The notes beneath the pieces were generated by a model. The model had not been told where the DNA came from and searched no databases. It saw nothing but the letters and a program-made list of their open reading frames with translations. A program made the translations under genes and the position numbers. From an uncultured bacterium (lineage in GTDB: Bacteria > DRYD01): a DNA stretch of 6,591 nucleotides. The stretch spans positions 1 through 6,591 of the forward strand of contig CAKZQG010000021.1 in assembly GCA_937139605.1 (NCBI GenBank). Reading direction: 5' to 3'. How positions within the stretch are numbered: position 1 is the first letter of the stretch; the number at the start of each line of letters is the position of its first letter. Below, piece by piece: positions 3,830 to 6,591 of the stretch.

Positions 3830-3999
3830 TAGTTCATACTCAATACTGTTAACCCTCTATCATTAAATAAAAAAATAAAATCTACAACTATATCAGCTCC
3901 ATACATCCTAATAAAATAATCAGATACTATCTTTACATATAACTCGCATATTTCATCTTCTAAGTTATCTAATTCTTGATTTTCTAATTCTTCTTCCAT
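3829..3999 (-). CDS. Small acidic protein of unknown function, 56 aa
   Basis: I do not recognise this protein. With the ATG at 3999 it begins MEEELENQELDNLEDEI, a strongly acidic helix-forming segment of about 20 residues, followed by a hydrophobic half (residues 20-50) containing YVKIVSDYFIRMYG and VVDFIFLF. It is soluble or peripherally attached rather than clearly transmembrane. An upstream in-frame ATG at 4011 would add four residues. The ATG at 3999 is preferred because GGAGGG lies 4 bases before it and because it overlaps the stop of the peptidase gene by one base (TAATG). Its own TAA overlaps the ATG of the nozzle-like gene in the same way. Possible roles, such as a chaperone for the tail protein or a lysis modulator, are guesses from position. 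Confidence 0.7.
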   Translation of the reverse strand: MEEELENQELDNLEDEICELYVKIVSDYFIRMYGADIVVDFIFLFNDRGLTVLSMN

Positions 4000-4457
4000 T
4001 ATTCCCTCCATCTTGCTGGTGATACTCTTTGTAAAATACTTCTGGTATCAATATGCACAAAAGTTGGATATAAACCTAAACCTAAATTTCCTTTTTCCTT
4101 CGGAAGGAAATAAAATTTATTCGGTGTTTTATCCCACAAATCTAAAGTTAAATATAATCCTTTTAAATCACTCTTACTTTTAACAGTCCAATCAACAGCA
4201 TTAAACACTAAGTGCAATGAATTACTTTTCCCTCCTATTTTACTGTTATACTGTGGTGTCCTATATGTTGAGTTAATTGTAATTGGCTCTCCATAGTATT
4301 CTCTCAACATATCAAGACACTTCATAGTTGGGATTATATTTGCTATATACTGCATTGGGATTTGTTCTTTAGTTATCTTTTGGATTTTAATCGGTTCTAA
4401 GATTTCATCCCAAGTAAAATATTTAAACTTAACTTCTTCAATTATTCTATCAATCAT
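3999..4457 (-). CDS. Peptidase M15 family peptidoglycan endopeptidase, probable endolysin, 152 aa
   Basis: Zinc-dependent D,D- or L,D-cleaving peptidase of the M15 (M15_3-like) type. Landmarks are TYRTPQYNSKIGG at about 64-76 (the SxYRxxxxNxxxGG pattern), the first metal-ligand motif with His82 (SLH) and Asp89 (NAVDW), then GLGLYPTFVHIDTR at 126-139 with His135 as the third ligand, and the terminal ARW. The residue normally Gly in SxHxxGxAxD is Phe86 here (HLVFNAVD), while the presumed ligands are all kept. The single-domain size is typical for phage endolysins of Gram-negative hosts. No signal peptide is seen, so it would need a holin for release, and one is encoded nearby. The ATG at 4455-4457 shares a base with the stop of the metallophosphoesterase gene (TGATG) and has GGGAG 8 bases upstream. 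A TTG one codon earlier is open but worse placed. A virion-associated wall hydrolase is an alternative, since tail genes follow directly. Confidence 0.85.
   Translation of the reverse strand: MIDRIIEEVKFKYFTWDEILEPIKIQKITKEQIPMQYIANIIPTMKCLDMLREYYGEPITINSTYRTPQYNSKIGGKSNSLHLVFNAVDWTVKSKSDLKGLYLTLDLWDKTPNKFYFLPKEKGNLGLGLYPTFVHIDTRSILQRVSPARWRE
4004..4009 (-). promoter_or_regulatory. Ribosome binding site that selects the start of the 56-aa gene
   Basis: GGAGGG on the minus strand ends 4 bases before the ATG at 3999 and lies within the Trp-Arg-Glu end of the peptidase gene. It decides between two in-frame ATGs: the upstream one at 4011 overlaps the binding site itself and has no comparable signal of its own. 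Confidence 0.75.
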
Positions 4458-5218
4458 CAATAAATCTCCCTATTTATTATTCTTCTTAGGTTAACTATAA
4501 ATCCCTTGTCCTTAGTCGTTATAACCTCTGCAAATCCGTGCTCCCATTGGTTAAACAAATTATATTCTGGATATAAGTCACACAAGCACCCATTAACCCA
4601 AACACTCTTAACTTTGCCTTTTAAATCCCTACTGCTATACGATTGACTTATATGCCAATGTCCCAATAAGATATTTGCTTGTAACTTTAATAGATACTGC
4701 CTTGCAACATTGATTAAATTGCTTGTCGCTCTTATTTCGTGTCCGTGCATAATAAACAATTCATTTATCTTTATGAGTTGATTATAATGCACAGTTTTAA
4801 TATTTAATTTCTTTAATTCTAATAACTCTTCAATGGTCAATGTTTCCAATCCAAATAGTGCTTCAGCGTGTAACCAAATATAATCATCAAGTCTCTTTTC
4901 GTGGTTACCATATTTATAAATTATTTCGCCTTTAAAATTTTTTCTTAGTGTATTTAAAAACTCTTTTACAACTTCTATTTCATCTTTTATCTGCTTGTGT
5001 TTTGGATGTCTTTTGTATCTACCAACCCCCTCAAAATCAATTAAGTCTCCGTTAATTATAAGTGTATCATAATACTTTAATTGACTAAGAGCTATGTTAG
5101 ACACCTCTTTGTTATGTTTTGGGATATGAAGGTCATTTATTATCATTATTCTCTTGCTACCTTTTATTTCAAAAGGTTTAATATAATTAGTAATGCCTTC
5201 CTGTCTAATAAATTCCAT
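4457..5218 (-). CDS. Calcineurin-like metallophosphoesterase, 253 aa
   Basis: All five metallophosphoesterase motifs are present in order: DLH (Asp29, His31), GDLID (Asp58), GNHE (Asn105, His106), MHGHE (His158), and GHWH (His187, His189). These bind a two-metal centre that hydrolyses phosphomono- or phosphodiester bonds, and the substrate cannot be read from sequence. Such enzymes are common in phages, where roles in nucleic acid end-processing or nucleotide signalling have been considered. The preferred start is the ATG at 5216-5218, giving a 14-base overlap with the helix-turn-helix gene. A TTG at 5281 would add 21 residues (first residues LTEVDLHKERF) but would require a much longer overlap, and no ATG lies in that stretch. 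The ribosome binding site of the ATG is weak. The core begins at about residue 22 after a short IKPFEIKG linker that looks like the junction between domains in phage proteins where a helix-turn-helix is fused to a phosphoesterase. Confidence 0.88.
   Translation of the reverse strand: MEFIRQEGITNYIKPFEIKGSKRIMIINDLHIPKHNKEVSNIALSQLKYYDTLIINGDLIDFEGVGRYKRHPKHKQIKDEIEVVKEFLNTLRKNFKGEIIYKYGNHEKRLDDYIWLHAEALFGLETLTIEELLELKKLNIKTVHYNQLIKINELFIMHGHEIRATSNLINVARQYLLKLQANILLGHWHISQSYSSRDLKGKVKSVWVNGCLCDLYPEYNLFNQWEHGFAEVITTKDKGFIVNLRRIINREIY
4466..4470 (-). promoter_or_regulatory. Ribosome binding site of the M15 peptidase gene
   Basis: GGGAG on the minus strand lies 8 bases before the ATG at 4457 and only 5 before the in-frame TTG at 4460. 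The spacing favours the ATG. The site lies inside the last codons of the metallophosphoesterase gene (Asn-Arg-Glu-Ile-Tyr). Confidence 0.6.
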
Positions 5219-5564
5219 ATTTCTTGTAATCCAAAATTTTATAATAAATCGTTCTTTGTGCAAATCCACTTCTGTTAGCAATCTTAAAAGATATTTCTTT
5301 CGCAGATTTATCAGGATACTTCTTTGATAAAGCTAAATATTCTTTAATAATCTTTTCCCCATTAGCTTTATGATAATTACTTGCTCTTTCAATTCCTAAA
5401 TAGTTTCTTAAAAATGTTACATTCCTTCTTATCGTTTCTAAATCATAACTTGTTCTACTTATTCTTTTATATATCTTTGCTATACTTGTGTCATTTAACT
5501 CTTTGTTTTCATTAAGTATTTTCTCTAATGCACCCCAGTCTATTTTCTTTTTTGCTGTTTTCAT
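5205..5564 (-). CDS. Small helix-turn-helix-type DNA-binding protein, 119 aa
   Basis: Basic, all-helical protein with two segments that look like helix-turn-helix units: one at about 26-55 (SIAKIYKRISRTSYDLETIRR) and one at about 86-111 (KSAKEISFKIANRSGFAQRTIYYKI). No catalytic motif, signal peptide or membrane segment is visible. The ATG overlaps the stop of the spanin-like gene by four bases (ATGA) and the end overlaps the metallophosphoesterase gene, so all three are translated together. It may act as the DNA-binding half of a two-subunit pair with that phosphoesterase, be a transcription factor, or be a small-terminase-like protein; sequence alone does not separate these. The first interpretation comes from the fusion of comparable domains that I recall in other phages. 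Confidence 0.6.
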   Translation of the reverse strand: MKTAKKKIDWGALEKILNENKELNDTSIAKIYKRISRTSYDLETIRRNVTFLRNYLGIERASNYHKANGEKIIKEYLALSKKYPDKSAKEISFKIANRSGFAQRTIYYKILDYKKYGIY

Positions 5565-6016
5565 AATCCCAAAGCAATGATAATTGTTATAACTACTCCA
5601 GCGATAAAATTCAAGTAAGGCTTTTCATACCAAGCTGTTCCATTCTGGAACGGCTTCACTGTTTCAATTATATCGTAAATTTTCACTGTATCCCTAATAA
5701 GTTTCTCATATGTTTGAAATTTTACATCCATAAACCATTTCGCAACAGTATCAATTTCTACCATCGCAGAAATCTGAATAGTTGCATTACTATCACTAAT
5801 AGTAGTATCCAATTGAGTAGTTAAGGTTTCATTAACAACCGTAATAGGTTTAATCTTTTCTATTACCTTTGTAATTTTCTTTTCAACCACAAGAGTATCT
5901 GTAACAATTTTTACTTCTTGCTTCGGTTTGTATTTTTCTCCACAACTTGAGATAACATATATCCCAAGTAGAAAAGATAAAATAGCAATTAAGATTAAAC
6001 TAAAATTGTTCTTCAT
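5561..6016 (-). CDS. Candidate unimolecular spanin: lipoprotein signal plus C-terminal membrane helix, 151 aa
   Basis: The N-terminus has a basic start, a hydrophobic core at about 5-21, and the lipobox-like ISSC with Cys25, the only cysteine, followed by Gly-Glu. The middle (about 30-125) is periplasmic in character, rich in Val, Ile, Thr, Glu and Lys with alternating beta-type patterns such as TDTLVVEKKITKVIEKI and DTVKIYDIIETV. The C-terminus, after WYEKP, is a hydrophobic helix at about 133-151 (NFIAGVVITIIIALGL). A lipoylated N-terminus in the outer membrane joined to a C-terminal inner-membrane helix is the plan of u-spanins such as T1 gp11, which fuse the two membranes in the last step of lysis. 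The nearby holin and wall peptidase agree with this. If the N-terminal segment is an uncleaved anchor instead, it would be a two-helix membrane protein of unknown role. The start overlaps the previous gene by 17 bases and has AAGAG 6 bases upstream. Confidence 0.6.
   Translation of the reverse strand: MKNNFSLILIAILSFLLGIYVISSCGEKYKPKQEVKIVTDTLVVEKKITKVIEKIKPITVVNETLTTQLDTTISDSNATIQISAMVEIDTVAKWFMDVKFQTYEKLIRDTVKIYDIIETVKPFQNGTAWYEKPYLNFIAGVVITIIIALGL
5632..5656. repeat. 10-bp inverted repeat inside the spanin-like gene
   Basis: AAGCTGTTCC (5632-5641) and GGAACGGCTT (5647-5656) flank a 5-base spacer. As plus-strand RNA the arms pair throughout with one U-G wobble. In the real, minus-strand mRNA there is a single C-A mismatch near the middle. 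There is no T-run on either side. The element lies in codons for the KPFQNGTAW region just before the C-terminal membrane helix. It could be mRNA structure that affects folding or translation speed, or chance. Confidence 0.45.
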
Positions 6017-6194
6017 CTTTTTCTCTTGAATATTCTTTAGCTAATTCTATTACACTTCTTTTTACTGATTCAGGATGATAACCATAAACTGTAAGCGTAT
6101 TTAGTAAAATCTCTAATAAATCATCTACCACTATATCTAAGTGTTTAAATTCAATGGTAATAATTTTTTCTTCATCTTCAAATGTTACTTTCAT
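6000..6194 (-). CDS. Small acidic protein of unknown function, 64 aa
   Basis: I do not recognise this protein. It begins with a beta-type strand pair (MKVTFEDEEKIITIEF), followed by a helix (VVDDLLEILLNTLTV), the segment YGYHPESVKRS near 37-47, and a charged amphipathic C-terminal helix. This is a common architecture for small soluble phage proteins and shows no metal-binding or membrane motif. The ATG at 6192-6194 has GAGAG 6 bases upstream. It is the first gene after the intrinsic terminator and its end overlaps the spanin-like gene by 17 bases, so it heads the downstream part of the operon. Confidence 0.7.
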   Translation of the reverse strand: MKVTFEDEEKIITIEFKHLDIVVDDLLEILLNTLTVYGYHPESVKRSVIELAKEYSREKDEEQF

Positions 6195-6268: not shown

Positions 6269-6478
6269 TTAAAACTTTTTTGGGTCTAACTGTTTTAAAT
6301 ATTTATTCTGAATAAACGTAATTAGCACTCCAACTAAAAACGATAACGCAGAGTAAATATATGCTTCCAAAGAATCTTGATTTATTCCAAAAGCTAAAAA
6401 TACTCCACTTAATACTTTAAACATCCATCTACCAATTAAAGCTGATAACCAAATTAAAGGTTTCTCTAATAGTTTCAT
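6269..6478 (-). CDS. Holin-like protein with two membrane helices, 69 aa
   Basis: Small membrane protein with hydrophobic helices at about 8-31 (the first, interrupted by Arg17 and Lys21) and 39-57 (SALSFLVGVLITFI), joined by a short polar turn with Asn-Gln-Asp-Ser. The C-terminus is short and charged (NKYLKQLDPKKF). This size and layout match class II holins, which open the inner membrane at a set time and release an endolysin that has no signal peptide. The downstream M15 peptidase and spanin candidate are suitable partners. The ATG overlaps the stop of the coiled-coil gene (ATGA) and has an excellent ribosome binding site, AAGGAG, 6 bases upstream. It is followed by a terminator. No dual start is seen near the N-terminus. 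Confidence 0.7.
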   Translation of the reverse strand: MKLLEKPLIWLSALIGRWMFKVLSGVFLAFGINQDSLEAYIYSALSFLVGVLITFIQNKYLKQLDPKKF

Positions 6479-6591
6479 TTTATTCTCCTTCCTTTATTTT
6501 TTAATTCTTGAATTGATTGACAAGATGATAAATGCTTTTCCAGTTTTGTATTTATCTGCTGAACTTCTTTAATAATATCATCTTTGATTGA
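6475..6591 (-). CDS. 3' end of a coiled-coil gene cut by the right window edge
   Basis: Reading in from the right edge on the minus strand, one frame is open for 38 codons and ends in TGA at 6475-6477, overlapping the holin ATG by four bases (ATGA). The peptide has hydrophobic residues at heptad-like spacing (DDIIKEVQQINTKLEKHL) followed by a basic end (KNKGRRIK). This looks like the C-terminal coiled coil of a longer protein. Function cannot be assigned. The overlap and the holin ribosome binding site within its last codons support that it is a real gene. Confidence 0.65.
   Translation of the reverse strand, partial: SIKDDIIKEVQQINTKLEKHLSSCQSIQELKNKGRRIK
6485..6490 (-). promoter_or_regulatory. 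Strong ribosome binding site of the holin-like gene
   Basis: AAGGAG on the minus strand, within AAGGAAGGAG, lies 6 bases before the ATG at 6478. It sits inside the last codons of the preceding coiled-coil gene. It is among the best initiation signals in the window, along with that at 1413-1418. Confidence 0.85.

Follow-up and report, generated by a model that had tools for sequence, protein, structure and literature searches.

The question raised by this locus is whether a 151-aa hypothetical protein, encoded among the lysis genes of a phage, is a spanin made in one piece, i.e. a unimolecular or u-spanin. The window, which is the whole stretch of DNA that was analysed, is a complete contig of 6591 bp. 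It is a fragment of a tailed phage, with all its main genes on the minus strand, and belongs to a 1.88-Mb draft genome bin (88.5% complete) of a little-sampled diderm phylum that is represented by seven genomes. Omp85 is present in the bin and the host therefore has an outer membrane; phage and host are linked by the binning. The two records that matched a 16S signature show about 78% identity along the gene, which is uninformative as to the name of the host. Two probes, the L003 capsid and Terminase_6C, found no other parts of the phage in the bin. The features of the window are the following:

6475..6591, minus strand: gene cut by the contig end, of which the C-terminal 38 aa are present (SIKDDIIKEVQQINTKLEKHLSSCQSIQELKNKGRRIK), coiled-coil-like and with one Cys
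6269..6478, minus strand: holin-like protein of 69 aa with two hydrophobic segments, called by hydropathy only
6000..6194, minus strand: gene of 64 aa that overlaps the start of the spanin candidate by 17 nt
5561..6016, minus strand: candidate unimolecular spanin of 151 aa, called by the lipobox at Cys25 (the sole cysteine), the C-terminal hydrophobic helix, the codon usage, and as the only strict-scan match in the window
5942..6016, minus strand: signal sequence and lipobox of the candidate, residues 1-25 (MKNNFSLILIAILSFLLGIYVISSC), with the pattern match at residues 15-25
5621..5941, minus strand: presumed periplasmic part of the candidate, residues 26-132, 30% charged and 37% V/I/T, with no cysteine (from composition)
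5564..5620, minus strand: putative C-terminal membrane anchor of the candidate, residues 133-151, with WYEKP immediately N-terminal and no charged tail behind (from hydropathy and insertion score)
5205..5564, minus strand: HTH-like protein of 119 aa, positional counterpart of an N-terminal part that relatives carry in one protein with the phosphoesterase
4457..5281, minus strand: metallophosphoesterase of 274 aa (PF00149, phrog_221), a syntenic marker of lysis cassettes
3999..4460, minus strand: endolysin, an M15 peptidase (PF08291, 3.7e-16; phrog_894 'endolysin', 1.8e-19)
between the M15 peptidase and the SLT transglycosylase, minus strand: three genes of unknown function, 60, 806 and 204 aa
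63..788, minus strand: second murein hydrolase, an SLT transglycosylase that is probably virion-borne

The open reading frame of the candidate (6016..5561, minus strand, from an ATG start to a TGA stop) is a real coding gene, because its codon usage agrees with that of the other window genes in its own frame alone and because it is tightly packed between its neighbours, with the 17-nt overlap upstream and a stop that overlaps the next start (ATGA). A sequence-only reading of the window had pointed to an ISSC lipobox at Cys25 and a hydrophobic helix at about residues 133-151, and both are confirmed. Cys25 stands in V-I-S-S-C, in agreement with the pattern generally used for lipoboxes ([LVI][ASTVI][GAS]C), and the protein also passes a PROSITE-type lipoprotein rule, with Lys2 in the n-region and no charged residue among the six before the box. 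The residue at +2 after Cys25 is Gly; Asp at this position is the inner-membrane retention signal of lipoproteins according to the E. coli rule, and the candidate does not have it. There are only two hydrophobic segments, residues 5-24 (KD up to 2.6) and about 133-151 (KD 2.15), and in a crude insertion-energy score the first lies between -4.6 and -4.9 and the last between -2.7 and -3.7, as compared with +5 to +6 for the best segment in the middle. The beta tendency of the middle part is one of composition only (Chou-Fasman mean 1.08 for beta versus 1.05 for alpha; Val, Ile and Thr together 37%), and a single-sequence AlphaFold model, all helix with a pLDDT of 47, carries no meaning.

The lipobox was called by a rule-based pattern match, and recognition of the protein by signal peptidase II rests on that rule. 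As the N-terminal hydrophobic segment is also long enough for a helix, the protein could instead be a non-lipoprotein that sits in the inner membrane with two uncleaved helices, for instance a lysis regulator or an antiholin. We find this quite improbable, since the sole cysteine belongs to a consensus lipobox and is placed right where the h-region ends, and since the whole layout is hard to obtain by chance. We scanned all six frames for open reading frames that are 70-260 aa long, have an h-region followed by a strict lipobox, and are hydrophobic in their last 40 residues. In the window this strict scan finds the candidate as the single match; it gives nothing in 400 copies randomised by a first-order Markov model and nothing in 1.03 Mb (2447 open reading frames) of unrelated IMG/VR contigs that had been collected for another purpose. 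The layout is thus more than chance. The scan recovers T1 gp11 and FCL-2 gp19, and a relaxed version recovers SIO1 gp22, 11b gp49, RAP44 gp03 and phi12:1 gp64; FCL-2, 11b, RAP44, SIO1 and phi12:1 are phages listed with u-spanins (PMC6139136). The match in phi10:1, gp004, is not beside an endolysin and may differ from the published u-spanin.

The order of the lysis cassette is the two-helix holin-like gene, the 64-aa gene, the candidate, the HTH gene, the metallophosphoesterase and the M15 endolysin. Because of the signal for a lipid anchor, the helix at the end and the site among wall-cutting and pore-forming genes, the candidate is most likely a one-piece spanin, and we conclude that it is probably the u-spanin of a tailed dsDNA phage, similar to T1 gp11 both in its plan and in how it would act. 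The u-spanin plan proposed by the sequence-only reading is thereby well supported, by the anatomy as well as by the context of holin-like gene, M15 endolysin and phosphoesterase-linked synteny. Among the points against it are that the protein matches no known family, and that no positively charged cytoplasmic tail follows its last helix. Phages do encode lipoproteins without a role in lysis, such as superinfection-exclusion proteins, and the sequence alone would be compatible with one of these. The candidate gene is however placed between the holin-like and the endolysin genes, and no exclusion lipoprotein is known to have a second, C-terminal anchor in the inner membrane, which makes such a role most unlikely.

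Among the genes around the candidate, the 69-aa holin-like protein matches no PHROG or Pfam family, and the 119-aa HTH-like protein has no family match of its own. The C-terminus encoded at 6475-6591 resembles the end of P12024L gp13. The HTH-like protein and the phosphoesterase are two overlapping open reading frames in different frames in the window (4457-5564), and form a single one of about 335 aa in five other phage loci (L195, L198, L205, L225 and P8625); the two-frame state may be a natural split, a frameshift or an assembly error.

A coiled-coil lysis protein of the inner membrane may be the product of the gene that the contig end truncates. On another explanation, the candidate is the outer-membrane half (o-spanin) of a two-component spanin and has its partner in this upstream gene. 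The coiled-coil-like C-terminus with its Cys would fit, and genes with an N-terminal helix and a coiled coil adjoin the M15 gene in P12024L, L170, L178 and L229, some of them with weak matches to Rz-like spanin PHROGs. The N-terminal helix of the partner would however lie beyond the contig end, and the C-terminal segment of the candidate has the length and hydrophobicity of a true membrane helix, a feature that o-spanins lack. We therefore regard a two-component system with the candidate as its outer half as improbable. No pair of the Rz/Rz1 type is present in the 6.6-kb window, which is a fragment of the phage, and as the phage is incomplete it may also carry a second spanin system.

If the candidate is a u-spanin, we infer the following course of events. 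After export by Sec the protein would be cleaved at Cys25, receive its lipid there and be sorted to the outer membrane, with its C-terminal helix staying in the inner membrane, so that one chain of about 107 residues would span the periplasm through the peptidoglycan mesh. The holin-like protein would then open the inner membrane and the M15 endolysin would cut the wall, and the freed chains could cluster and collapse, by which the membranes would be joined and the outer membrane disrupted. Such a mechanism of collapse and fusion has been proposed for T1 gp11 (PMC6139136).

T1 gp11 (phrog_1804; PMC6139136) is also among the closest known parallels in plan, in that it is one chain with an N-terminal lipobox and a C-terminal membrane helix, about 90-110 periplasmic residues with no cysteine, a place in a holin/endolysin cassette, and WY..P before the helix. 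There is however no detectable sequence similarity; the candidate has no PHROG match to the gp11 family, and the alignment is no better than shuffles. The two also differ in that gp11 has a basic cytoplasmic tail and belongs to a set with a SAR-endolysin and a pinholin, whereas the candidate lacks the tail and goes with a soluble-looking M15 peptidase. The u-spanins of Bacteroidetes phages (11b gp49, FCL-2 gp19 and phi12:1 gp64) resemble the candidate in layout and size, in having Cys only at the lipobox, in coming from AT-rich phages, and in that the gene adjoins the endolysin, which in FCL-2 is an M15 peptidase. All three match phrog_5885, but the candidate has no profile match to it.

The sequence-only reading had set the candidate apart from the two-component spanins of most described Gram-negative phages, and this contrast is weaker than it was made out to be. 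In 2018, 58 u-spanins in 13 families were already catalogued (PMC6139136), and a survey from 2025 reports that phages of Bacteroidetes use no spanins other than unimolecular ones, and also that IMG/VR is rich in spanins (PMC12596118). For this reason the surprise is modest, and the candidate is new in sequence and probably of a known kind.

No direct relatives of the candidate were found in 50,697 phage records, where a 46-aa C-terminal piece was also used as query, nor in IMG/VR, in 84,980 species genomes or in the 7 genomes of the phylum itself, and the protein matches no known u-spanin, PHROG or Pfam family. One hit, phrog_4756 (E 4e-4), was not accepted as a homologue; it extends over a part of the profile, which is 440 aa long and has no assigned function. 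According to the published rule for clustering u-spanins, 40% identity over 40% of the periplasmic part, the candidate would be a singleton family, as were six of the thirteen families of 2018 (PMC6139136).

Further guidance comes from the phosphoesterase. Aligning it with two phage relatives led to 79 further loci (31-41% identity, 0.64 Mb), and these contain 11 strict layout matches versus none in the 1.03 Mb of controls. All are on the strand of the phosphoesterase, 9 to 1333 bp away from it; they fall into two families (A4 and L198) and are therefore not 11 independent events. With the relaxed scan a third family (L217, L220, L225-L227 and L232) and further members of A4 are added. The three families are mutually unrelated and unannotated, and their members occupy the same place in many of these loci. 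None of these proteins has a convincing PHROG or Pfam match, and a search of 50,697 phage records with one A4 member came back empty. Genes for lysis enzymes are close by: an amidase (PF01510) in L195 and an endolysin called by PHROG in L198; by inspection only, L225 also has a lysozyme that looks like GH24, and L205 a VanY-like peptidase. The order of holin-like gene, small gene, lipobox and C-helix protein, phosphoesterase and endolysin is common to the window and L225, and the same elements recur in other orders in L195, L198 and L205. The context of the candidate is thus a recurrent one. In many A4 loci a gene of 75-88 aa overlaps the start of the spanin by 11-23 nt; the 17-nt overlap of the 64-aa gene in the window is a parallel. 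The comparison of these small genes between the window and A4 is at most suggestive of homology (single-sequence p about 0.016; one of five pairwise tests at 0.0015).

The proteins of these loci (A4 in L188, L193-L207 and L230; L217/L225; L198) share with the candidate the layout and the place beside the phosphoesterase. Most of them have a positively charged tail, which the candidate lacks. A4 (L188, L193-L197, L200-L207 and L230) has three periplasmic cysteines that are invariant in the alignment, and the candidate has none; a model of this family shows four strands before the last helix, with low confidence (pLDDT 54). Searched against about 9,800 open reading frames, the A4 profile gives no match to the candidate even with E values of up to 20 allowed. 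In a global alignment with the L225 protein the candidate is beaten by 17 of 20,000 shuffles and stands above all 622 AT-rich controls, in one of about fifteen comparisons made, and the profile of the L217/L225 family ranks it 3476th among shuffles. It is a syntenic protein of the same layout, possibly a distant relative. A tentative reading, which we find possible but somewhat less likely than not, is that across a large group of uncultured phages the HTH-phosphoesterase gene is a mark of the lysis cassette, and that at one position in it mutually unrelated one-piece spanins, the cysteine-bearing A4 among them, have taken over from one another; the candidate would be another occupant of independent origin.

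For the window itself the outcome is mostly one of annotation, from hypothetical protein to probable u-spanin. Of more interest, as a by-product, are the cassette linked to the phosphoesterase and the A4 family with its cysteines. Spanins diverge fast and are thus missed by annotation libraries, and neither the candidate nor the proteins of the same layout have a usable library match; a conserved phosphoesterase next door is then a practical handle for finding them. All 58 published u-spanins are without periplasmic cysteine (PMC6139136), and A4 would put to the test the published position that disulfides in the periplasm have no part in u-spanins.

The WYEKP before the anchor had been suggested to mark a wider family in AT-rich phages, and this did not hold. 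About 120 stretches in IMG/VR encode WYEKP[YF] in a pattern scan, and in one family only, which is unrelated, does the motif precede a C-terminal helix. T1 gp11 has the look-alike SWYDP at the same place, several close relatives of T1 have WYDA, and LIMElight, TLS and the C-terminal part of KP34 gene 54 do not have the motif. On this variation and the scan together WYEKP is rejected as a family marker, and it is most plausibly just the usual kind of aromatic stretch ahead of a membrane helix. The one family consists of four near-identical loci (L075, L092, L109 and L123) with a type-I-looking signal peptide that has no lipobox and a coiled-coil-like middle, a plan that resembles phi13:2 gp095. 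Its weak phmmer match to the candidate (E 0.0013) is biased, because the family was fetched by the WYEKP pattern.

Two further observations concern neighbouring subjects. In L003, fetched earlier, the phosphoesterase is 96% identical to that of the window over the part present, and a different, VanY-like peptidase follows it (L003:560-898), an exchange of endolysin beside a conserved gene. The likely u-spanins of 11b, FCL-2 and phi12:1 (L130:28129-28593, L131:11415-11798 and L139:9053-9484) are the three that match phrog_5885, which bears the label unknown function; it could therefore be relabelled as u-spanin, and would then join three published families.
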